NCBI RefSeq assembly: GCF_029633865.1
Contig: NC_079213.1
Span: 102,758,923 to 102,822,922, forward strand
DNA length: 64,000 nucleotides
Reading direction: 5' to 3'
DNA from: Lampris incognitus
Taxonomy: Eukaryota; Chordata; Actinopteri; Lampriformes; Lampridae
Numbering within the stretch: position 1 is the stretch's first letter; every line of letters begins with the position of its first letter. Below, piece after piece: positions 7,801 to 64,000 of the stretch. A program made the position numbers and the translations under genes. The notes below the pieces were generated by a model. The model did no database searches. It saw only the letters and a list, made by a program, of their open reading frames with translations, and was not told the origin of the DNA.

Positions 7801-10726
7801 GCCCTTTAACCAAGCACATTTCTAAAAGATGCCAAAGGAGACAAGAAACAACAGGAGCGATTTATCTTTACCTTGTACAGGTAGAACCAGTTCCAGATGA
7901 TGCTCATGAAGAAGCAGATAGCGAACAGTCTCTTGAACTGGATGAACCAGGAAACCACCGACCACAGCTGAGTACAGATGATGGTCACGATAATCATAAC
8001 ACATAAGCACACCTAGGTAGAGAGAATAAAACAGAATATACACTACCGTTCAAAAGTTTGGGATCACCCAAACAATTTTGTGTTTTCCATGAAAAGTCAC
8101 ACTTATTCACCACCATATGTTGTGAAATGAATAGAAAATAGAGTCAAGACATTGACAAGGTTAGAAATAATGATTTGTATTTGAAATAAGATTTTTTTTA
8201 CATCAAACTTTGCTTTCGTCAAAGAATCCTCCATTTGCAGCAATTACAGCATTGCAGACCTTTGGCATTCTAGCTGTTAATTTGTTGAGGTAATCTGGAG
8301 AAATTGCACCCCACGCTTCCAGAAGCAGCTCCCACAAGTTGGATTGGTTGGATGGGCACTTCTTTGAGCAGATTGAGTTTCTGGAGCATCACATTTGTGG
8401 GGTCAATTAAACGCTCAAAATGGCCAGAAAAAGAGAACTTTCATCTGAAACTCGACAGTCTATTCTTGTTCTTAGAAATGAAGGCTATTCCATGCGAGAA
8501 ATTGCTAAGAAATTGAAGATTTCCTACACCGGTGTGTACTACTCCCTTCAGAGGACAGCACAAACAGGCTCTAACCAGAGTAGAAAAAGAAGTGGGAGGC
8601 CGCGTTGCACAACTGAGCAAGAAGATAAGTACATTAGAGTCTCTAGTTTGAGAAACAGACGCCTCACAGGTCCCCAACTGGCATCTTCATTAAATAGTAC
8701 CTGTTAGAGCCTGTTTGTGCTGTCCTCTGAAGGGAGTAGTACACACCGGTGTAGGAAATCTTCAATTTCTTAGCAATTTCTCGCATGGAATAGCCTTCAT
8801 TTCTAAGAACAAGAATAGACTGTCGAGTTTCAGATGAAAGTTCTCTTTTTCTGGCCATTTTGAGCGTTTAATTGACCCCACAAATGTGATGCTCCAGAAA
8901 CTCAATCTGCTCAAAGAAGTGCCCATCCAACCAATCCAACTTGTGGGAGCTGCTTCTGGAAGTGTGGGGTGCAATTTCTCCAGATTACCTCAACAAATTA
9001 ACAGCTAGAATGCCAAAGGTCTGCAATGCTGTAATTGCTGCAAATGGAGGATTCTTTGACGAAAGCAAAGTTTGATGTAAAAAAAATCTTATTTCAAATA
9101 CAAATCATTATTTCTAACCTTGTCAATGTCTTGACTCTATTTTCTATTAATTTCACAACATATGGTGGTGAATAAGTGTGACTTTTCATGGAAAACACGA
9201 AATTGTTTGGGTGATCCCAAAACTTTTGAACGGTAGTGTAACTCTACTCTCGGGCTGAAGAATCTCGCTCACAGTTTGACACATAATGGAAAAACAAAAA
9301 GGAGTGGACATCTTGGTCGGGCGTCCTACAAACACAATTCGCCATGTCTGCGGGTGGGAAGCCGGATGTGGGTATGCATCCTTGTCACTGTATTAGCGCC
9401 TCCTCTGGTCAGTCGGGGCGCCTGCTCGGGGGGGAGGGGGAACTGAGGGGAATAGTGTGATCCTCCCACACACTACGTCCCCCTGGTGAAACTCCTCACT
9501 GTCAGGTGAAAAGAAGCGGCTGGCGACTCCACATGTATCGAAGGAGGCATGTAGTAGTCTGCAGCCCTCCCCAGATCAGCAGAGGAAGTGGAGTAGCGAC
9601 TGGGACAGCTCGGAGGAGTGGGGTAATTGGCCGGTTACAGTTGGGGAGAAAAAGGGGGGGGAGCCAGTGGACATAACACAAAAGCAGCATATTTAAGCAA
9701 GGCCATCTGAGCCAAGTGAATCTAGCTTAAGTGCAGCATGCATGTGCAAATACAGATATAAATGTAATCAGAGCTGTAGTCTATTTAAAGTTATATTTCT
9801 CAGTACCCCCATCATTTCCGCTTAGGCGAGCCCTCTGCTGATGATACTGACATTCAGAGAAAGAGAGCAAAGGTAGATAACCAGTCTGAACCAAATGACC
9901 TCTGCAATATATGAGCGCAGCCACGTTAACAGTTTGTCCTTTTGACCAGCTGGAAGCACAGACACCAGTGATACACAGAGTCAAACAAGTAGCCGGCATT
10001 TTTGATAAGTAGTCTAAAGAGCAGAACAACAAGTGCATTAGAATAGTAGTGGACATTTGTGCTTTGAAAAAAAAAAACTCTTTCTTTTCAAATTTAACTA
10101 GCACCAACATCTCTATGTGTAAACCTGCAAGGATACCGATTGAATCTAATAACACTGATAGCAGGAATGGTATTAACATTACATAAAGAAACTAAAGTTA
10201 ACTAAAACATACTTTTGTCCAGCAACTTCTAACAGAATTGAATTGTGGGATATTCTTAATATGGGATGGGACCCTTTAGAGGAAAGGAAAGGCAAAGTAA
10301 TGAATGTCCCCTTAACACACGCTGGAATGGAAATGCACTTTGATTGGCAGCATGTTTTATCGTGGCGCATTTTAAGCCTGCCCCCCCCCCCCCCGACTTG
10401 AAGGCAGTGGATTAATTTGTATGGTGCATAGCTCCAGTGTTCAAAAGGCTGATGGCATTCAGAATTGACATCTTTGGGGGAGAGGAGTTTCAAGCACAAA
10501 AGTTGGTCCTCCCAACTTTTGTTTGTCGTGATTGTGAATCCCTTTTCTAAACCCTCCTTTAGAAAGTACTATACAAATAACATTATTTGCTGTTGTATAC
10601 GTCAACTTTTTAATCATTAGCCATAGAAAGCATACATTTCCCGTTTTGTTACACATTCTCTCCCCATCGTTTAGAGAACTTGAAAAGACACATACATCTA
10701 GAAAAACTTGCATTCACACGCACGCA

Positions 10727-20155: not shown

Positions 20156-20175
20156 CGGACGACTCGGTTTGAAGT

Positions 20176-21030
20176 TTGATGCGGAAAAGTTTTCTAGGAG
20201 CGGGAGAGCGGTTAGTGTTCCTAAGCAACGTTCAGTATATGTTAGCATTAGCTGCTAGCGTGAGACTGCCGTGTGACATGGATGGGCTAAAACCACCGCA
20301 AACGTTATGTCTGGACTCAAGCAACCTTTCGAAGACATGGAAGGCCTGGAGGGACGAGTTTGCTCTGTATGTGGATTTAGCCGTGGCTGACGCTGATGAC
20401 AAACAGAGGGTGAAACTGTTCAGCTATCTTGTCGGGGAGAGCGGCAGGGAACTTATGGACACGTTACTGGGCGACACACCGAAAGATGCATGGAAGTTAG
20501 ATGACGTTATCAAGAAGTTTGATGATCACTGCGACCCCAGCGTTAACGAGACTGAGGAACGTTATCGTTTTTTTACAAGAAACCAGGGCACCAGTGAAAA
20601 TATAGACCATTATGTCATGGAACTGAGAGTGTTGGCAAGAACATGCAACTTTGGGACAGGGAGAGACTCGCTCATTCGGGATCGGATTGTGTGTGGAGGT
20701 AACAACACAATCGTAAGAGAAAGACTGCTCCGGGAGAAAAACTTGACACTGGACACATGTTTGCAGCTGTGCAGAGCCGCTGAGCTCTCAAAGGACAATG
20801 TGAAAACCATCTCGGGATCGATGGTGGAAGAGGTACATGCAGTGCAAGGAGCACAGTATCGGAAACAGACGAGCAACACTGTGGAGTGCAGATATTGTGG
20901 AAAAACGCATGAGAAAAGTAAACAGAAGTGCCCAGCGTTTGGGAAGAAGTGCACAAAGTGTGGAAGAGAGAACCACTTTGCAGCAAAATGCAGAGTAAAA
21001 CCGGAACTAAGGAAAAAAATATGTGAGTAA
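20176..21030 (+). CDS. Gag of Gypsy 1
   Basis: A 284-residue frame with a Gag-type helical core and two C-terminal zinc-knuckle-like motifs, CRYCGKTHEKSKQKC and the canonical CTKCGRENHFAAKC (CX2CX4HX4C). The true start may be the internal methionine before DGLKPPQ. The frame ends at TAA just after a run of seven A (21013-21019). The +1 frame is open across that point, so the present stop may result from an inserted A. Confidence 0.85.
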   Translation: MMRKSFLGAGERLVFLSNVQYMLALAASVRLPCDMDGLKPPQTLCLDSSNLSKTWKAWRDEFALYVDLAVADADDKQRVKLFSYLVGESGRELMDTLLGDTPKDAWKLDDVIKKFDDHCDPSVNETEERYRFFTRNQGTSENIDHYVMELRVLARTCNFGTGRDSLIRDRIVCGGNNTIVRERLLREKNLTLDTCLQLCRAAELSKDNVKTISGSMVEEVHAVQGAQYRKQTSNTVECRYCGKTHEKSKQKCPAFGKKCTKCGRENHFAAKCRVKPELRKKICE

Positions 21031-21050
21031 AATAACAACTGAATCTGAGA

Positions 21051-22857
21051 GTGATGAATATGAAGATATTATCACCTGTGTCACTGAAACTGAGAAAAAA
21101 AACTGTGGATGCAGTAGAGACTGACACAGGGAAAGATGTGCATACAGAGACTGTAGAGGATGTAAAAGAAACTGAGAAAATGAAGAAAACTCAGCTTCTC
21201 TATGCTGGCATGCTTCTAGGCAAGGGCATGATCAAATTCCAAATAGACTGTGGTGCCAGTTGCAATATCATCCCAATTAACTTGCTGAATCCAGATGCCA
21301 AATTAGAACACACGAAGAGTGTACTAGTAATGTACAATAAAACCAAATTAAAACCACTGGGAAAATGTAAAGTGAAAATAAGAAACCCGAGAAACAACAA
21401 GCTATATCGCTTAGAGTTCCAGGTGGTGAATGCAGCTGGTACAGTGCCTCTGCTGGGTAGGAGAGCCAGTGAGGCCATGAAATTGATAAAAGTGCAATAT
21501 GAAAACATCATGACAATAGACAGTATTGTCACAACAGAAACAACATCAGGACAGTGGATAATGGGACAAATTAAAGATGAGTATGCTGATGTGTTCATTG
21601 GCGATGGCTGCCTCGAGGGAAAATACAAAATAGAGGTGGACAGCACAGTGAAACCAGTACAGCTGCCAAAGAGGCGGGTCCCAGTCGCCATGATGAAACC
21701 ACTGAAGGACGAGCTACAGGACCTACAGCAAAGAGGGATCATAACACCTGTGGAATGCAGTACAGATTGGATCAGTGCAATGGTGGTGGTACAGAAACCA
21801 AGTGGGAAACCAAGAGTGTGTATCGATCCCAAGCCTTTGAACAAAGCTCTAAAGCGCAGTCACTTCCCACTGCCAACCATTGAGGACATTTTACCAGACT
21901 TGTCAAAAGCAAAAGTATTCACAGTGTGTGATGTCAAGAGTGGATTCTGGCATGTGCAGCTGGAGGAGGAGTCCAGCTATTTAACAACATTTGCCACTCC
22001 ATTTGGACATTACAGGTGCCTGAGGATGCCAATGGGGATAAGTCCAGCCCCAGAAATGTTTCAGAGAAAGCTCACACAAGCGCTGGACGGTGTACCGGGC
22101 TTGTACATTATAGCTGACGATGTACTGATCACAGGCCAAGGGGAAACACAGGAGGAAGCTGAGCGTGACCATGATGGAAAACAGACTGTTTCTTGAAAGA
22201 TGCAGACAAAAGAACATCAAGCTGAACAAAGACAAATTCAAGCTGAGACAAAAGGAGACCACATACATTGGACACCGCCTGACGGCTGATGGACTCAGGG
22301 CGGATCCAGAGAAAGTGCTTGCCGTTGAGAAGATGCCGGCACCGACTGATGTGAAAGGAGTGCAAAGGCTGCTAGGTATGGTAAATTATCTTGCCAAGTT
22401 TTGTCCCCACCTCTCAGACCAGTGCATAGTGTTGAGAGATTTGACACACAAAAACAGGGAGTGGAACTGGACAGCACAGCACGAGGAGGCTTTCCTCAAA
22501 TTGAAAGAGACTATAGCAAAGGTCCCAGTACTGAAATATTACAACCCAGATGAGGAACTCACAGTGCAGTGTGACGCTTCAGACACAGGCTTAGGCGCAG
22601 CGCTCATGCAGATGGGTAAGCCAATAGCATTTGCAAGCAGAGCACTCACTCAAACAGAGCGTGGGTATGCACAAATAGAAAAGGAGTTCTTAGCAATGGT
22701 TTTTAGCATGGAAAGATTTCACCAGTACACATACGGCCGAAAAGTGACGGTGCAAAGTGATCACAAGCCGTTGGAAACAATAGTGAGAAAACCTCTACTA
22801 AGTGCACCGAAAAGGCTGCAGGGAATGATGCTGCGCATACAAAAGTATGATCTAGAT
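21051..22857 (+). pseudogene. Gypsy 1 pol, part 1: protease, reverse transcriptase, RNase H
   Basis: The protease motif is IDCGASCNIIP. The reverse transcriptase spans about 21640-22320 with the catalytic pair in YIIADDVLITG. A +1 shift falls near 22175, after which RNase H follows (QCDASDTGLGAALMQMGK, then SDHKPLE). The coding sequence is cut at 22857 by the hAT insertion, at RIQKYDLD. Another +1 step lies in the 8-A run at 21095-21102. Frame breaks cluster in or next to A-rich runs. Confidence 0.88.
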
Positions 22858-25385
22858 CAGGGGTGCCCACTACGTCGATCGCGATCGACCAGTAGATTGC
22901 GAAGGCAGTGCTGGTAGATCTCCATGACATTCCAAAAAAACTTTTTTTTCCAAGACATTAGCCTATCATCTGTCCTCCATTTGGCATTTGCCTTTTGGTT
23001 GACGTAAGGACGGCCAGTCTGCTGTTGCCTAAAACCAAAGATTCTAGAGCGGAACCTAAAACTTTGTTACATTAGGTTACCATAACAACCAGAGCCCTTC
23101 TCGAACGTACCTTGAAGTTCACATGCCCACAACGTGTGCTAACGCAGAACTGCATCGAGCTAGCTAGTTCAACTCTCTAAAAAAAATTCTACTAAAAAGT
23201 GAAACAAAACAAAAATGAGTGGGGGAGCCGGACCTAGCAAGAAACAAAAAACGTACCATTTCCATGTGGAATGGGAGGAGGACTTTTTTTTCACCATGTC
23301 TTATTCCAAATGCGTTTGTCTCATCTGTCAGTCTAGCATTGCTATCCAAAAGAAAGGAAATGTGGAGAGGCACTTTCGAACTGTTCATAAAAACTATGAC
23401 AATGACTGCCCTCCGAAAAGCGAGCTGGGAAAGAGAAAGGTAAGGGAACTAAAATCGCAGTTAATCGCCCAGCAGTCACTTTTCACGCAGCCGCATTCAA
23501 AGGCAAAGGCAGCCACCGAAGCATCTTTACGGGTGAGTCACTCCATCATTAAGCATAAGAAAGCCTTCCAAGGTGGAGAGATGATGAAAGAGGCCTTCCT
23601 TGAGGCAGCAGATTCGTTGTTTCGGGACTTTAAAAACAAATCAGAAATAATATCTTCAATCAAAGCTCTCCAGTTATCAAGAAATTCTGTCACAAGGCGC
23701 TGTGAAGGGATGGGCGATGATTTGACACAGCAGCTTTGGAGGGACATCGTGGACTGTGAGTGTTTCTCACTACAATTGGACGAGTCTACGGACATAAGTG
23801 ATACGGCCCAATTGTGCATTTTCATTTGCATGGTGTTTCAAGATATGACCGCAAAAGAGGAGCTGTTAACAATACTACCCATGAAGGAACACACGCGGGG
23901 AGAGGACATTTTTCAGATCTTCAAAAACTTTGTGGATAAAACCCAGCTCACAGTGTGTAAACTGGTGTCAATCACCACGGACGGTGCGCCTGCTATGGTG
24001 GGCCGCTCGAATGGATTTATTGCCAAGTGTAGGGAGGACGATGCTTTCCCTGACTTCCTTAATTACCATTGCATAATACACCAACAAGCATTATGCGCAA
24101 AAATGCTAAACATGAAAGAGATCATGGATGTGGCAACCAAAATCGCCTGTTCTATTCGAGCGAGGTCTCTTCAAAGACGGTTGTTTGGTACACATTTGGA
24201 AGAGGCCGACTGTAACTACTCTGACCTCTTGCTACACACTGACGTGAGAAGGCTTAGTAAAGGGAGATTCTTGCAGAGATTTTGAGAGCTCTGTCTGGAG
24301 ATTAAGGAGTTTCTCCTTATCACTAAACATGCGGAACACAAGCAACTTAATGACAATCAGTGGCTGCTAGACTTGGCGTTTTTAACTGATTTAACCAACA
24401 TGTTGAACGAGCTTAATTTAGAGCTGCAAGGAAAAGACAAAAGCGTGGTAAACATGATCAGCTCAGTTAACGCTTTCAAACGGAAAATGCAACTTCTGTC
24501 CTCAAAGTTGCAGCGCCGTGATTTGGGAAACTTCCAAAACCTCGCAGCAGAGCTGGAGAAGCAAGAGAGGGCGTGTGCGCAACTTGACAGTGCACGCTAC
24601 ACAGAGCAGATTGAAAATGTCCGGTCAGACTTTGACAAACGGTTTCAAGACTTTGCTTTGCTTGAGCCAATCGCTACATTTATGTGCTACCCATTTGGGG
24701 AAGATACAGAGGTGGATTCCCTCGCCTCAAAAATGGCATCACTGTTTCACCTGAACTCGTCTGCAGTGGAGGATGAGATGCTGACAGTACAGGCTGACAT
24801 TCAGCTTAAGTCCAGGGCGCATGGAGAGTTTTGGAACTTACTTACAGAGGACAAGTACCCAAACATGAGGAAATGCGCAACCTCCTTGACGGCATTATTC
24901 GGCTCTACTTATTTGTGTGAGTCAGCCTTTTCTCACATGAAGATTATCAAGTCCAAATACCATTCCACCATGACAGATGATCATTTGGAGGCCTGCTTGA
25001 GGCTGGCTACCAGCAGCTACTGTCCGAACTATGCAACCCTGTCTGACTCCCTCCAGTGCAGGTCATCCTCAGAGTAGAGAGGTAGAGATCACAAATCTAT
25101 TTACCACAGCTGTAAAGGTTCATGCAGTGATGCAATTTCAACATAGTGTAGTAGCAAATGCTTGGTAGGATTATTGCCTGTGTAAGGTTCAATATAAATG
25201 CAAATCCATTGCAATACTGTATATGTAACACAACATGTATATAAATACACACACTGCATATAAATGTTCATATATATGTAAAACATGTATTGAGTATTTT
25301 TATTATTATTTTTAATATGAGTAGATCATTTTGACCTGGTCATTTTAAAAGTAGCTCACGAGTCAAAAAATTGTGGGCACCCCTG
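22858..25385 (+). mobile_element. hAT DNA transposon 2, nested in Gypsy 1
   Basis: Perfect 13-bp terminal inverted repeats (CAGGGGTGCCCAC and GTGGGCACCCCTG) and a perfect 8-bp target duplication ATCTAGAT (22850-22857 and 25386-25393). Length 2,528 bp. A palindromic GATCGCGATC lies just inside the left end. The insertion plus duplication is 2,536 bp, which accounts for the change of pol frame across it. Confidence 0.97.
23215..25077 (+). pseudogene. hAT transposase with one in-frame stop
   Basis: One frame of 621 codons interrupted only by TGA at 24283-24285. It has an N-terminal BED-like finger (VCLICQSSIAIQKK...RHFRTVH), the first catalytic Asp in LQLDESTD, the second in TTDGAPAM, and the C-terminal CESAFSHMKIIKSKYHS. 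A second defect is visible: the conserved tryptophan of the VRWLSKGR-type motif is arginine (VRRLSKGR). Related to, but clearly distinct from, the transposase at 11692-13629. Confidence 0.92.
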
Positions 25386-26698
25386 ATCTAGATGTAGTGT
25401 ATGTGCCAGGTAGAGACATGCTGCTAGCAGACACTCTGAGCAGAGCTTATCCTCCTGAGAGTGCACCGGATGCAGAACTAGAGACTGTCAACATGGCACA
25501 ACACTTACCTATCGCAGCAGACAGGCTACATGATATACAATCTGCCACAAAAGAGGATGAAACACTGCAGCTTCTCATCAAAATGATGCAGCAAGGATGG
25601 CCTTACGATAAGTCAAAAACACCAAGGGAAATCAAGCCCTACTTCTCATTCCAAGAGGAGTTAAGCCACCAAGATGGAATAGTGTTCAGGAGTGAGCGCG
25701 CTGTCATCCCTGATGCATTGAGGAAAGACATCACTTGCCGCCTACACGCATCACATCTGGGTGTGGAAGGATGCCTACGGAGGGCTAGGGAGTGTGTCTA
25801 TTGGCAGGGCATGAACGACCAAATAAAATCATATATAGCAAAGTGTGACATCTGCAGATCAATGGACATTAAGCAACAAAAAGAAACACTAATGTCACAT
25901 GATGTGCCAAGCAGGCCGTGGGCAAAGGTGGGCACGGATCTGTTCATGTTTGAAAACAAAGACTACCTCATAATTGTTGATTTTTTCTCAAATTTTTGGG
26001 AAATAGATTACCTGGCAGATACCAAGTCAACCACAGTGATACAGAAGCTGAAAGCTCATTTTGCCCACTAAGGTATCCTAGATATTGTAATCTCGGACAA
26101 TGGCCCACAGTATTCGTCACAAGAATTCCAGAAGTTCAGTCGACTGTGGGGATTTCAACATAAAACCTCATCACCAGGTTACCCGCAAAGCAATGGCAAA
26201 GCTGAGTCAGCCGTTAAGACAGCAAAAGGACTCTTGCTCAAAGCCAAGGCTGCTGGACAGGATCCTTATCTCGCCCTTCTGGACCACCGCAACACACCAT
26301 CACAGGGTACTGATACCACACCAGCACAGCGACTGCTGAGTCGCCGTACCAAAACACTACTGCCAACCAAGGCAAGCTTGTTACAGCCGAAAGTTGTACA
26401 GGTGAAACAGGATTTACAAAATAACCAACAACGGCAGAGGGCATACTACAACAGGTCGGCTAAAGACTTGGACACGCTTGCCCCAGGTGAATGTGTGAGA
26501 GTTCAGCCTCTCGCACCTCACACTGGCTGGAGAGTGGGCAAGGTGCTGAGGCCGGTCGATAGGAGATCCTATGAGGTCCAGCTGCACACGGGTGGTGTCA
26601 TCAGGAGAAATCGCAGACACCTCAGGCATGCACCAGGGGCAATCTTCACTGACACTATGGACATGGAGATCAGCAGCCCCAGTCAGCCAGAGAGTTGA
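25386..26698 (+). pseudogene. Gypsy 1 pol, part 2: RNase H end and integrase
   Basis: Resumes with DLDVVYVPGRDMLLADTLSRAY, then an integrase zinc domain (H-x3-H, then CDIC) and catalytic core (VGTDLF..., ISDNGPQYSS, GYPQSNGKAE). An in-frame TAA at 26069-26071 interrupts the core. The frame then continues to a stop at 26696-26698. The integrase C-terminal part (ECVRVQPLAPHTGWRVGKVL) is preserved. Confidence 0.9.
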
Positions 26699-56772: not shown

Positions 56773-56907
56773 TGTAAACTACTAATAAGACACGTTAGCC
56801 CCTAGCTAACGGGTCTGACCCTTTAGCCGAGCGGTTAGTGATGTCGCCTTGTGGTGCAGTACACGCCGTTTCGAACCCCGCACCGGGCAAGGAAATAACC
56901 GGTTACA
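56773..56907 (+). mobile_element. 135-bp TG...CA element with tRNA-like boxes, copy 3
   Basis: Same ends and length as the copies at 29458 and 29733. Flanked by the 4-bp duplication ATTA (56769-56772 and 56908-56911). Confidence 0.75.
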
Positions 56908-57250
56908 ATTATATCCTGCTTATTTGCATGTTCGAAATAAATCATCATTCATTCATTCATCAAAAATTGGCAAGAGTCGTAACAATTTCAGCACAGAGGA
57001 TAATGCGACTTAAAAGGAACGTCTCACATTTCCCATGAATCACCATGCTATTGTAGCGTGCATGGATAAGTAAACACGTTGGTCCTTGGTTAACAAACCT
57101 ACCTTTTTAGTCGAGCGGTCAGCGATGTCTCCCGCGGTGCGGGCGATACGGGTTCGCGTCCCGGCCGCGGCAGTTCCTGTGGATGCCCCTCGAATTCGCT
57201 ACATTGGTGTCAGAAGTGGGACGGGGCGACCGTAAGGCCATCGGAAGCCT
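56908..57250 (+). mobile_element. LTR-like remnant with tRNA-like segment and possible primer site
   Basis: 57105-57175 carries TTTTAGTCGAGCGGTCAGCG and GGGTTCGCGTCCC, resembling the boxes in the 135-bp elements. The segment ends CGCTACA at 57203, and directly after it comes TTGGTGTCAGAAGTGGGACG, which looks like an LTR junction plus primer-binding site. No coding region follows. Confidence 0.45.
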
Positions 57251-58190: not shown

Positions 58191-58377
58191 GTTCAGCGGG
58201 CCCTATTCGTCTGATCCCACCGCGTGCTTCTATCGCCCTTCAGCTGGCTTGTCTCGTAAATAAATCACATTTCCAAAAAGCGAACTAAAACGGTAACGAC
58301 TCGTTCATTTTACTGTAAGGCACAAACAAAAGTTAACCACCCTATTGATAAATGCAAACGAACTTCAAGTAAATAAA

Positions 58378-58512
58378 TGTAGCCGGTTTTTTTTTCGCCC
58401 GATGCGGGATTCTAAACGAGGTGTCCAGCACCACAAGGCGACATCACTAACCGCTCGACTAAAGGGTCAGATCCGTTAGCTAGGGGCTAACGTGTCTTAT
58501 TAGTAGTTTGTA
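58378..58512 (-). mobile_element. 135-bp TG...CA element with tRNA-like boxes, copy 4 (minus)
   Basis: Reverse orientation relative to the other three, same length, more diverged (ends TGTAGCC and TTTGTA, and a T-run at 58386). No clear target duplication. Confidence 0.68.
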
Positions 58513-58575
58513 ATGTGATGTAATTAAGACGAAGAGGAAGCGGGGCAGGCTAAGCTAACTGCTAACCCATGCATA

Positions 58576-59294
58576 TGTAACCAGGTTAAAATTAATGTTT
58601 TTATTTTATTTTGTTTGAGTATGAAATATCACCAAATCCTGTCTGTGTGCTGTTATTTGTGTTTACTACATTTTATTTTATGTCATTATTTACTTTTATG
58701 TGTTTTACAACGACCGTCATATACGTGTACTGTCGTTTTAAGAGAGAGGTCTTATGGGTACACGGAAGACGGAACGCGGGGGAGGCCATTTTTGTTTTGT
58801 GGGAGGAGTCTCAAGCAGCAATCGAGCCGAGCCACGCGTGTTTCTTACCGTGGGACAGTTTTGCGGGTTGAGGAGAACGTAACCTTGAGTATCCCTGTAA
58901 GAAGATACTGCAAGCTGTGGGATAAAATACTTGTTTATCCTTTCTTACATCGGAGTCCCGTGGACGGTTTCTACTTCTAACGCACACGAGTGGAGTCCGG
59001 GCAGTGGTTGAACTTCGACCCCCACGTCCGTAAGAAACACCGCTCCCGCTGGAGGACTGGACGGTTGTCGAAGGGTTTGAAACCAAAATAAATGGCAAGG
59101 TGAGCCAAATAGAGTCCTGTGTGTCCCCCCTCCTTCCTTGATTATGATGATGATGATGATGATGAGAGACTGAGGGCCCCCCATAACACCTGGGACCCCA
59201 CCGAAAATAGAACACAACGCAGAGCTAACGATGAGAGTGACGGGCGTGCTGCAGGCTGACCAGCATAGAACAGCATAGGACTGCCCCCGTTACA
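58576..59294 (+). repeat. 5' LTR of Gypsy 2
   Basis: 719 bp, begins TGTAACC and ends CCGTTACA. Contains AATAAA at 59087-59092 and a (GAT)n stretch at about 59144-59164. The boundary is fixed by the adjacent primer-binding site. Confidence 0.88.
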
Positions 59295-59295
59295 T

Positions 59296-59307
59296 TGGTG
59301 CCGTGAC
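59296..59307 (+). other. Primer-binding site of Gypsy 2, tRNA-His type
   Basis: TGGTGCCGTGAC starts one base after the LTR. It is complementary to the 3' end of tRNA-His (…GTCACGGCA plus CCA) over 12 nt. Confidence 0.75.
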
Positions 59308-59748: not shown

Positions 59749-61284
59749 ATGGCAGAGGGTGGTTCGTACGTAGGTGGGGGTAACATTGCTGATCAGGATC
59801 TTTTGGATCGCCAGTGTGCTATGGAGAGGGGGTACCAGTTAGATGTGGGTGGGGGTTTACGGCTAGGTGTAGGTAGGAGTTTCGGGCAGCTCTTAGAGGG
59901 CGGGGAACCAGACACCAGAGCACCAGGACCTAGAGACCCGACCACATTTGGCACTCCTCAGTTCACCTCCACACGCTACGTGGAATGGGCCAGGCCAGGT
60001 ATCAGCGAAGGGGCTGTGCTGGGTAACAGCGAGCAGCCAGTGGGTGAGTTAGCCATGCTCATTACTCGGTTAGCAGAGAAGATAGGAGAGTCAATCACTG
60101 CTAAGCTGCAGGAAACACAAATGCTTAGAAACACACACACAGACAGTGCTAGGTCTGCTGAACCGTGTTCGGAGACAGCTCCTAGTGTTAGAGTAGTAAT
60201 GCAGACAGACGCTAGGGAGCCTCCTATTTTCAGGGGCGATAGCTCTGATAAGTTTACAGTTCATGAGTGGGAGAGCCTTATGACTTTGTATTTGAGGAAG
60301 CGAGCCATTCCAGTTAGTGAGCAGTCACATGAGATTCTAGCTAAGCTTATGGGGAAAGCAGGGGACGTGGTGAGGATAAAGCTGCGCAACACATCTGTCG
60401 ACCACATAGCGAACCCCCACATTATTTTTGATGTACTGAAGCAACACTTTAGTGACTTCACATACTCGAGCATGCCCCTGGCGGACTTTTACAGTACGCT
60501 GCCCAAGCCAGGTGAGGACGCTATGGAGTATTGGATTAGGCTTAATAAGACAGTGGAGGTGGCTGACGAATGCTTGAAGTGGCAGGGCCATAGTATTGAA
60601 GAGCCAAGCCACGAGGTAAGCATGATGTTTATCAAACACTGTCCAGATCAGTCTCTTGCCAATGTTTTTAAGTTCAAGTCCGCAGGGAAATGGTCTGCTA
60701 GCGAGATCCAGGAGAGGCTTGATGAGCACATGCTGGAGAGGAAGTCCCGTGTTGCTGCAGGTGGACAACGTGAAGCAGGCGCGGTAGAGCGTAGGTTCCA
60801 TTCACAGGTTCATGTCCCTGTAGTCGACATGGCTCCCGACTTGAACACGACCGTGCCGGTGGTGCTATCTCCCGTCCCGGCTCATGCGTCATCTCCTATA
60901 CCATTTTGTGCAAGGTCTCCTACACCGTCTCCTGCACCTGTCTCTGGCGGTGATGATTATATGAGGAGTTTGGTGAGCTTGCTAGACCGTTTGGTCAAAA
61001 TGCAGACTCAGGTTCCAGTTAGCGCTGCAGTCCGGACACCGACGCAGACTCAACCGCCAGCTAGCGCCGCAGGGCAGGTGTCAGACGCACCGCAGAGGTT
61101 GTGCAGGGTTTGTAAGTCTCCGGATCACTCCACATTTTCCCACTGCAGCCGGGAGAACCGATGTATAAACTGTTTGTCTCCTGGTCATTGGAAGAGGGAC
61201 TGTCCTCACCCTCAGCCGCCCAACCAGCTCCGTTCTCAGCCTGGTGGAAGAGCTGGTCGTCAGTCTCGTCCGTTAAACTACTAA
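59749..61284 (+). CDS. Gag of Gypsy 2, intact, 511 residues
   Basis: Structural capsid/nucleocapsid polyprotein of the retrotransposon. The N-terminal part is Gly-rich (about 1-50). A capsid-like helical domain lies in the middle (about 160-330, including VHEWESLMTLYLRK and LADFYSTLPKPGEDAMEYW), then a Pro/Ser/Thr-rich linker. Two zinc knuckles follow at about 452-466 (CRVCKSPDHSTFSHC, CX2CX4HX5C) and 472-485 (CINCLSPGHWKRDC, canonical CX2CX4HX4C). It ends at TAA 61282-61284, which lies inside the frameshift signal spacer. Confidence 0.93.
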   Translation: MAEGGSYVGGGNIADQDLLDRQCAMERGYQLDVGGGLRLGVGRSFGQLLEGGEPDTRAPGPRDPTTFGTPQFTSTRYVEWARPGISEGAVLGNSEQPVGELAMLITRLAEKIGESITAKLQETQMLRNTHTDSARSAEPCSETAPSVRVVMQTDAREPPIFRGDSSDKFTVHEWESLMTLYLRKRAIPVSEQSHEILAKLMGKAGDVVRIKLRNTSVDHIANPHIIFDVLKQHFSDFTYSSMPLADFYSTLPKPGEDAMEYWIRLNKTVEVADECLKWQGHSIEEPSHEVSMMFIKHCPDQSLANVFKFKSAGKWSASEIQERLDEHMLERKSRVAAGGQREAGAVERRFHSQVHVPVVDMAPDLNTTVPVVLSPVPAHASSPIPFCARSPTPSPAPVSGGDDYMRSLVSLLDRLVKMQTQVPVSAAVRTPTQTQPPASAAGQVSDAPQRLCRVCKSPDHSTFSHCSRENRCINCLSPGHWKRDCPHPQPPNQLRSQPGGRAGRQSRPLNY

Positions 61285-61331
61285 ACCCACACCTAGAGAG
61301 GGATGGTGTGGGTAATGTAGATGTATCCCTC
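61272..61331 (+). promoter_or_regulatory. Probable -1 ribosomal frameshift signal between gag and pol
   Basis: The slippery heptamer G TTA AAC (61272-61278) is in the gag frame. It is followed by a 6-nt spacer holding the gag stop. Stem 1 pairs ACCCACACC (61285-61293) with GGTGTGGGT (61305-61313), 9 perfect pairs. The stem 1 loop segment GAGGGAT (61298-61304) pairs perfectly with ATCCCTC (61325-61331), making an H-type pseudoknot with a 4-nt first loop, no unpaired base between stems and an 11-nt last loop. pol is open in exactly the -1 frame. GUUAAAC is a known functional slippery sequence (equine arteritis virus). Confidence 0.88.
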
Positions 61332-64000
61332 ACTGATGTCTCCGACCTGGCTCACTTGTATGAAGACAAGTGTGCCAAAGCACCTCAGGGTTCGCGTATG
61401 GTCATTCAGGCGACACAGAGGATTCAGGCTTTCAGTGACTTGTTCTATGCTCCTGTTCTTATCAACCAGAGTGTGCAGCTTAATGGCATGTTGGATACTG
61501 GCTCTATGTCATGCAGTATCAGTGAAAATGCAGTAGAGAAGCTCCGCTCTAGGGGTGTTTTACCTGAGAAGCAGCAGCCTGAAGAGAACATTGTCTTGAT
61601 TGGCTGCGGTGGTCTGGAGACTAGGCCTGATGGTTTTTATGACCTCAACATGCAGCTTTATGGTGTTTCCTTTGTCATACCCACTCTGGTCGTGCCCGGT
61701 CAGCATGATGATCTGATAGTCGGCACAAACGTCATTAAACATGTGGCCCATGTACTCAAGAGTGGTACTGAGTACTGGGACATCGCGTCCAGACAGGAAC
61801 ATCCGTCTAGTCCTGACGTTGAACAGTTCTTGTCCATGTTCACGAATGTAGAGCGCTGGAGGGGTGGTGCAGTTCCTGAGAAGATAGGTACTGTTAAGCT
61901 CACCCAGGCCATGACACTCTTACCGAGGCACGAGCACTTAGTCTGGGGCAGACTTCCTGCTAAGGTGCCTATGTCAGCTGGAAGCACTGTTGTTGTGGAG
62001 CCGACAGACTCCAAGGCCATGCCACGCAGTGTCCTCGTAGGTCGACTTGTCACACCGCTCTGGGGTGATAGGTGGGTACCCATGACTGTTGTCAATCCAT
62101 CTGACAAAGCCATCACACTGAAAAGGAACTGCAAGTTGGCTGATGTGTTTCCATGCTTGGCGATTGAGGACTTTAATGTTTTCCAGGGACTGCAATCAGT
62201 TGCAGGGAGGCATGAGTCCAACGCCACAGATAGTGCCTGTCCCCCTGTCCAGCCGGCTAGGAGTTTGTCAGAGCTCGGACTCAGTGACATTGACCTCAGC
62301 TCCTGTCAGGTTAGTGAGGCATGCAAGTCCCAGCTCACTCAGCTGCTCACCGAGTACCATGACATCTTCTCCAGGGACTCTCTGGACTGTGGCGAGGTCA
62401 CAGGATACACACATCGCATCCATCTGGTGGATGAGCGCCCCTTTCGCTTGCCCTACAGGAGGGTTCCCCCAGCCCACTATCAGAAGTTGAGACAGGTTCT
62501 CACTGATATGGAGGAGAAAGGGATTATCCGGAAGTCCTCGAGCGCATACGCTTCACCGCTGGTTATGGTATGGAAGAAGGATGGCGGGCTTCGGATCTGC
62601 ACTGATTTCAGATGGCTGAATGCTCGGACCTTGAAAGACGCTCATCCCTTGCCACACCAGTCGGACTGTCTTGCCGCGCTGGGTGGTAACTGCCTCTTTA
62701 GTACGATGGACCTCACCTCTGGCTTCTTCAACATCCCAATGCATGAAGATGACAAGAAGTACACTGCTTTCACGACTCCCCTTGGGTTGCATGAATACAA
62801 TCGCATGCCACAGGGCCTTTGTAATAGCCCTGCAGCCTTCATGAGAATGATGATTGGGATCTTTGGGGATCTGAACTTCACGAAGCTTTTGTGCTATCTT
62901 GATGATCTTCTTGTCTTCGCGCCGTCAGAGGTTGAGGCTCTGTCGAGGCTCCGCACTGTGTTTCAGAGGTTGAGGGAGAACAACTTGAAACTGGCTCCGA
63001 AGAAGTGTCATCTGCTGCAGAAGCGGGTGCGGTTTTTGGGCCACGTGGTTGATGGCGGAGGTGTGTCTGTCGATCCCTCCAAAGTAGAGGTCATCTCCAA
63101 CATGACAGTGCAGGATCTCATGGAAGGTGATGGGTGCACGCCTTCTGTTCGTAGGATCAAATCTTTCCTTGGTATGGTATTTTACTACCAGCATTTCCTC
63201 CCGAACTGCTCCTCCGTGGCTAAGCCCCTGTTCGCCCTTACAGCTGGACAAAAGAGGAGGGGGAGGTCGGCTAAGGATAAGAAGCCCCATGGCAGCTTCC
63301 GTAAGCTTACCTCCGCAGACTGGACGGTGGAATGTGGGGAAGCATTTGATCTGTTGAAGACGATGTTACTGGAGTGTGTGGTGCTTGCCCATCCAGACTT
63401 TGAGGTGCCTTTCATTTTGTCGGTCGATGCGTCTTTGGACGGACTCGGCGCGGTGCTGTCTCAAGTGCCCCGAGGAGAGTCCAAGGCCAGACCTGTTGGT
63501 TTTGCAAGCAAGTCCCTCAGTGCCTCACAGCGGAAGTATCCAGCTCATAGACTGGAGTTCATGGCGCTGAAGTGGAGTGTTTGTGAAAAGTTCAGCCACT
63601 GGCTGAAGGGTCAAAGCTTCACCGTTTGGACAGATAATAATCCGCTGACTTATCTCCTAACGAAGCCGAAGCTTGACGCGTGTGAGATCCGCTGGGTGTC
63701 TAAGTTGGCGTCTTACACCTTCGATCTCAAACACCTGCCAGGGAAGAAAAACGTGGTGGCGGATGCATTGAGTCGCGACCCTTTTTCCAAGCCCGTCAGT
63801 CAGAGGCTACTTAGGGAGCCCTACCCGGCCCTTGTTCAGGAAGCCGACGGGGTTGAGGGGGACTCTGTGCAGGATGTTTTCAGACTCAGTTGCCAGTCCC
63901 AAACACTGAGTAGTGCGCGATCTGGGTTTGCTTGTGATGCAGCTGAGGTCAGGGCTTTTTGTCAAGCCAAATGTGACTGGCCTGATGCATCAGTATTCAC
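61278..64000 (+). CDS. Pol of Gypsy 2, intact, runs off the window
   Basis: Read in the -1 frame relative to gag, the frame is open from at least 61260 to 64000 with no stop, about 900 codons. Domains: aspartic protease with LDTGS (D at about 61494); reverse transcriptase about 62430-63080, starting at FRLPYRRVPP, with DLTSGFFNIPM, GLCNSPAAFMRMM and the catalytic CYLDDLLVF at 62894-62905; RNase H with LSVDASLDGLGAVL (about 63420), TDNNPLTYLL, and the closing LPGKKNVVADALSRDPF (63730-63785). The integrase is beyond 64000. It has no independent start near its beginning, so expression probably depends on the frameshift signal at 61272-61331. Confidence 0.93.

Follow-up and report, generated by a model that had tools for sequence, protein, structure and literature searches.

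A probable programmed −1 frameshift signal, with a GTTAAAC heptamer and a predicted H-type pseudoknot, between gag and pol in a fish Ty3/Gypsy LTR retrotransposon

How does an LTR retrotransposon make Pol when its gag ends in a stop codon and its pol lies open in another frame? We examined this question for an element in a 64,000-nucleotide stretch of DNA (the window, meaning the whole of that stretch), and conclude with high confidence that the gag-pol junction of this fish Ty3/Gypsy LTR retrotransposon would act as a programmed −1 ribosomal frameshift signal giving Gag-Pol. The parts of the element, with the basis on which each was assigned, are:

58509 to 59294, plus strand: probable 5′ LTR, inferred, with ends TGTAA...TTACA and AATAAA at 59087; the 3′ LTR lies beyond the window
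59296 to 59307, plus strand: probable primer binding site TGGTGCCGTGAC, by sequence reading; we take it to match the 3′ end of tRNA-His
59749 to 61284, plus strand: gag ORF of 511 amino acids ending LNY-stop, with two zinc-knuckle-like motifs by eye (ORF, Pfam, homologues)
61272 to 63998, plus strand: pol in the −1 frame, with a DTGS protease-like motif by eye, reverse transcriptase and RNase H, truncated where the window stops (ORF, Pfam, structures)
61272 to 61278, plus strand: slippery heptamer G_TTA_AAC, in phase with gag
61279 to 61284, plus strand: 6-nt spacer with the gag stop TAA (61282-61284), by sequence reading
61285 to 61293, plus strand: stem 1, 5′ arm, by pairing scan
61298 to 61304, plus strand: stem 2, 5′ arm, by pairing scan
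61305 to 61313, plus strand: stem 1, 3′ arm, by pairing scan
61325 to 61331, plus strand: stem 2, 3′ arm, by pairing scan

Judged from its sequence, the element is a Ty3/Gypsy-like LTR retrotransposon, and we leave its clade inside Gypsy at this level. Pfam scored one zinc knuckle in gag (PF00098) and, in the pol portion within the window, RVT_1 and RNase H; it scored no protease family in the window pol, where the DTGS motif was seen by eye. Integrase domains (PF17921 and PF00665) are present in the pol proteins of relatives, and the window ends before that part. The two best matches of pol among solved structures were 4ol8 (E = 1e-74), presumably Ty3, and 7q5b (E = 4.1e-74), whose chain is named Ty3-G Gag-Pol; among solved structures, the reverse transcriptase is closest to the Ty3 type. 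No chromodomain (which we take to have accession PF00385) was named in the Pfam columns of the best 120 of 585 pol matches. Homology searches found 204 gag homologues at E ≤ 0.001 and 585 pol homologues, and we call the element fish-type because the named protein matches come from fish (Amia, Coilia, Oreochromis, Danio and Takifugu, with one coelacanth, in the best 120 of each list).

An inverted-repeat arm at 58368-58509 (partner 56776-56917) ends where the probable 5′ LTR begins, at 58509, so insertion may have taken place at the margin of another repeat. A search for repeats of at least 60 nt showed no second copy of its gag or pol in the window among the matches listed, which took in 25 of the 31 inverted pairs. 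The window also holds a second Gypsy-like element (20173-26698), with a gag-like ORF seen by eye at 20173-21030 that has no Pfam family, a gag end near an A7 run at 21013-21019, a pol ORF that starts at 21036 and carries RVT_1, and hAT-like ORFs, again by eye (23203-25077), inserted between the pol pieces. Its pol is in another frame, and 20900-21030 contains no strict XXXYYYZ heptamer in phase and no notable fold. Other repeats include an inverted repeat at 8052-9226, with 524-nt arms that are 99% complementary and 127 nt between them, and long transposase ORFs of hAT type (PF05699, 11653-13629) and Tc type (PF01498 and PF13358, 139-1173).

The gag ORF runs from an ATG at 59749 to a TAA at 61282-61284 and ends CCG TTA AAC TAC TAA, placing GTTAAAC (61272-61278) in X_XXY_YYZ phase as G_TTA_AAC, a slippery heptamer whose first three bases are not identical. 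After the heptamer comes the 6-nt spacer TACTAA, which contains the gag stop. Across the slip site the −1 frame reads GTT AAA CTA CTA AAC CCA CAC; it is open over 61116-63998, and the stretch 61272-63998 comprises 909 stop-free codons to the window end. Together, gag and pol are open across 4.2 kb.

Downstream of the spacer, 61285-61293 pairs with 61305-61313 to give a perfect stem 1 of nine Watson-Crick pairs, and 61298-61304 pairs with 61325-61331 to give an equally perfect stem 2 of seven. The predicted H-type pseudoknot has a loop 1 of 4 nt (61294-61297), 0 nt between the stems and a loop 3 of 11 nt (61314-61324). The initial annotation had placed GTTAAAC in the gag phase, the gag stop inside a 6-nt spacer and pol open in exactly the −1 frame, and had described perfect 9-bp and 7-bp stems forming an H-type pseudoknot; each of these statements was borne out, the last at the base-pair level of a predicted knot. 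The stem-1 hairpin has a folding energy of −16.7 kcal/mol, which is unusual (z = −3.4); under nested folding the 57-nt segment is not unusual (z = −1.4). A simple sum for the knot, based on general stacking values and a fixed penalty of 9.6, gave −21.6 versus −17.9 for the best nested fold, a rough estimate that puts the knot 3.7 kcal/mol lower, and none of 1000 shuffles reached the knot energy. A further stable hairpin (61348-61377) lies 3′ of the pseudoknot in the nested fold of a 102-nt segment.

Given this arrangement, most ribosomes would read gag and terminate at UAA, and some would be held by the pseudoknot with UUA in the P site and AAC in the A site. Both tRNAs would slip one base back, to GUU and AAA, and translation would then run on in pol, producing a Gag-Pol fusion as the minority product. 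We infer the folding in the cell, the slippage and the ratio of Gag to Gag-Pol from this layout. A point against the mechanism is that the P-site slip from UUA to GUU requires a tolerated first-position mismatch.

Searches for DNA of other copies yielded no locus, either in viral contigs (with pol, the gag alignment and the pol alignment) or in genome contigs (with the pol alignment and the gag alignment), and relatives were compared as proteins, with the gag and pol frames read separately. The gag set comprised 121 proteins (the window and the best 120 of 204 matches), of which 112 reach the nucleocapsid end and 9 were dropped by pattern. The pol set likewise comprised 121 proteins (the window and the best 120 of 585), of which 11, without the protease anchor by pattern, were dropped. 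The junction itself could be followed in 11 pol-frame sequences including the window, drawn from the 13 rows in which 66 or more residues precede the anchor; two of these were dropped, P0139, whose chain skips the junction, and P0218, which starts after the slip site. The length limits of the protein search excluded full-length in-frame Gag-Pol proteins, and a search aimed at junction-crossing proteins gave three matches: P0124 itself, P0127 and P0135. Rfam returned five matches up to E = 10 on 61200-61420, all far under their gathering scores.

In the 112 gag proteins, the last slip-type dipeptide was LN in 86, GN in 9, SN in 5, LK in 5, EN in 3, GK in 2, FN in 1 and VN in 1, and relatives as distant as about 34% identity retain it. 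These classes were picked after viewing the tails and the last match in the tail was taken, so the low variability at the dipeptide positions arises partly by construction. That the chain ends directly after the slip dipeptide in 94 of the 112 is not a product of how the dipeptides were picked. The five Ser-Asn proteins and the one Phe-Asn protein are a poor match to a slippery heptamer and perhaps derive from damaged copies.

The pol frame offers a second reading of the same site. Among the 11 junction rows, the slip residues were Val-Lys in 3 (the window, P0124 and P0169), Phe-Lys in 3, Gly-Lys in 4 and Leu-Lys in 1 (P0138), and in 10 of the 11 VK, FK or GK stands before L or R, consistent with GTTAAAC, TTTAAAC or GGGAAAC. 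Val-Lys in the pol frame together with Leu in gag fixes GTTAAA, and Phe-Lys and Gly-Lys fit TTTAAA and GGGAAA, respectively. In 8 of the 11 rows Lys-Leu is followed by a residue with a GNN codon, as expected if UAG comes directly after AAC. For the 86 gag proteins with Leu-Asn, the residue preceding Leu limits the first heptamer base: it must be A or G in 41 (Gln or Lys) and C or T in 9, and is unconstrained in 36. Grouping the 38 proteins that read Gln-Leu-Asn gives 11 groups at 70% identity and 3 at 60%. Because Ile-Lys, the residues expected from ATTAAAC, occurs in none of the 11 junction rows, G is likelier than A as the first base, assuming that Leu is encoded by TTA. GUUAAAC may be common in the element family, alongside UUUAAAC and a PEG10-like GGGAAAC.

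Stem conservation was assessed with a protein-based pairing test, in which each pair is judged singly and codon choice is free. The spacing from slip site to stem-1 3′ arm is identical in all 11 junction rows. Stem 1 is pairable at a mean of 8.7 of 9 positions; swapping arms between rows gives 8.3, and sliding the register gives 6.1 to 8.4. All nine pairs are possible in 8 of the 11 rows. At pair 61290-61308 the residues (His/Cys and Val/Met/Ala) dictate the bases, and every row is paired: 7 have C-G and 4 have U-A. The latter four may belong to a single clade, and the compensatory change may be one event. Stem 2 is pairable at a mean of 5.9 of 7 positions, compared with 5.9 after swapping and 3.7 to 6.1 after sliding. 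The true register of stem 2 does not stand out from these controls, so the test lends stem 2 no support; that of stem 1 stands out only slightly. The pair 61303-61326 is impossible in 8 of the 11 rows, and stem 2 may be shorter in relatives than in the window.

Codons within the stems were scored in 78 pol proteins, 32 of the remaining 110 having been dropped for lack of Met/Val then Gly/Ser at the expected place. The codon at 61326-61328 encodes Ser, Thr, Pro or Ala (NCN codons possible) in 72 of the 78, compared with 0 to 38% at eleven other positions scored, and is then followed by Leu in 66. This pattern is what an invariant C in stem 2 would give, but it could also reflect a protein constraint.

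The same scored proteins bear on whether pol might instead be translated by termination followed by re-initiation at a start codon just 3′ of the gag stop. Met stands at the stem-1 3′ arm codon in 69 of the 78, as such a route would have it, but this share is inflated because gene callers start at ATG; Val stands there in the other 9, and the window codon is GTG (61308). The first pol-frame ATG 3′ of the gag stop, at 61398, sits behind five gag-frame ATGs (61303, 61315, 61321, 61336 and 61360), and re-initiation leaves the heptamer and the slip dipeptide unexplained. We consider it improbable.

Some annotated fish gene models have gag and pol in one chain, as would also arise if splicing fused the two frames. 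At least three of the best 120 pol proteins (P0138, P0139 and P0195) carry gag residues ahead of pol, and P0138 and P0195 are apparently joined at the gag-pol junction itself. Splicing is superfluous, however, given a complete frameshift signal, and we consider it very improbable.

Only one copy has been seen as DNA, and its signal could in principle be a chance match within a decayed element. We weigh this reading against scans of both strands for heptamers of the form AAA, CCC, GGG, TTT or GTT, then AAA or TTT, then A, C or T, requiring Watson-Crick stems of at least 8 pairs (stem 1) and 6 pairs (stem 2). One of 941 heptamers in the window has a downstream H-type knot of this size, and it is the GTTAAAC at 61272. 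A heptamer-blind scan of 127,836 start positions found 8 knots of at least 8+6 and 7 of at least 9+7, and all seven start positions of the latter are adjacent readings of the GTTAAAC knot, leaving no other 9+7 knot among the positions scanned in the 64-kb window. Synonymous recoding of the pol peptide gave the 9+7 knot in 5 of 200,000 sequences (stem 1 of at least 8 alone in 2,069), and random codons in the same ORF gave it in 0 of 200,000. The earlier judgement that chance agreement is very unlikely is upheld by the heptamer scan, the recodings and the energy shuffles. With both ORFs open over their 4.2 kb and the dipeptide kept to about 34% identity, a chance match is extremely improbable. 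The knot placed directly 3′ of the gag stop would suit stop-codon readthrough, but the chance that readthrough supplies Pol is negligible, because pol is in a different frame and the gag frame meets a TAG at 61294-61296, four codons past the TAA. A −1 frameshift at GTTAAAC is thus the reading we retain, and the initial proposal of a Gypsy element with such a signal finds support in the anatomy, the chance tests and the slip dipeptide kept in relatives.

The mechanism itself is well known, and the novelty of this example is modest. Pol in the −1 frame, as in the window element, is ordinary for animal LTR elements: a 2003 survey counted 28 such cases among 51 elements, many with classical heptamers, according to an excerpt of a review (PMC5009743). 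Yeast Ty3, whose Ty3-G Gag-Pol structure 7q5b is a near-best match to the window pol, differs from the window element in that its frameshift is +1, as the same excerpt states (PMC5009743). That text gives G_UU(A) for equine arteritis virus and places G_GGA_AAC and U_UUA_AAC among the most shifty heptamers. The initial annotation had assigned the G-starting heptamer to arteriviruses, which holds for equine arteritis virus (GUUAAAC) but not for the other arteriviruses shown in the available part of PMC3835772, where UUUAAAC is listed. Equine arteritis virus resembles the window further in its spacer of 5 and stems of 10 and 7 bp, although it is an unrelated virus and its loop measures 58 nt, compared with 11 nt for the longest loop here (PMC3835772, same part). 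No report of GUUAAAC in a retrotransposon was found in the open-access literature searched.

PEG10, a mammalian gene from a sushi-ichi-related Gypsy element, likewise shifts −1 from a gag-like frame to a protease frame at a heptamer followed by a pseudoknot. Its signal, given as GGGAAACTC in an excerpt of PMC2800197, encodes GN and GKL at its GGGAAAC heptamer, which a 5-nt spacer follows, resembling the GN gag proteins and three GKL pol rows among the relatives. The window differs in its GTTAAAC heptamer and 6-nt spacer, and its signal lies in an LTR element that encodes reverse transcriptase and whose relatives also have integrase. Frameshifting is described for PEG10 and RTL3 in the passages available of PMC11011659 and for PEG10 in those of PMC3406341; the portion available of PMC7297798 reports a preference for XXXAAAC, with native PEG10 giving no signal above threshold in that assay.

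These comparisons raise the prospect, which we put at even chances, of a large fish Gypsy family in which the AAAC slip core is kept, the first three bases shift among GUU, UUU and GGG with GUUAAAC the commonest, and UAG often stands directly after the heptamer. If true, GUUAAAC would be a standard retroelement heptamer, not a trait of a single arterivirus, with the PEG10 signal forming one branch of this heptamer variation. The window provides a compact, well-defined signal with an uncommon heptamer and natural variants around it. Such a signal family would let one ask how the P-site mismatch and the choice of heptamer set the ratio of Gag to Gag-Pol in vertebrate retroelements, and would bear on the origin of the PEG10 signal.
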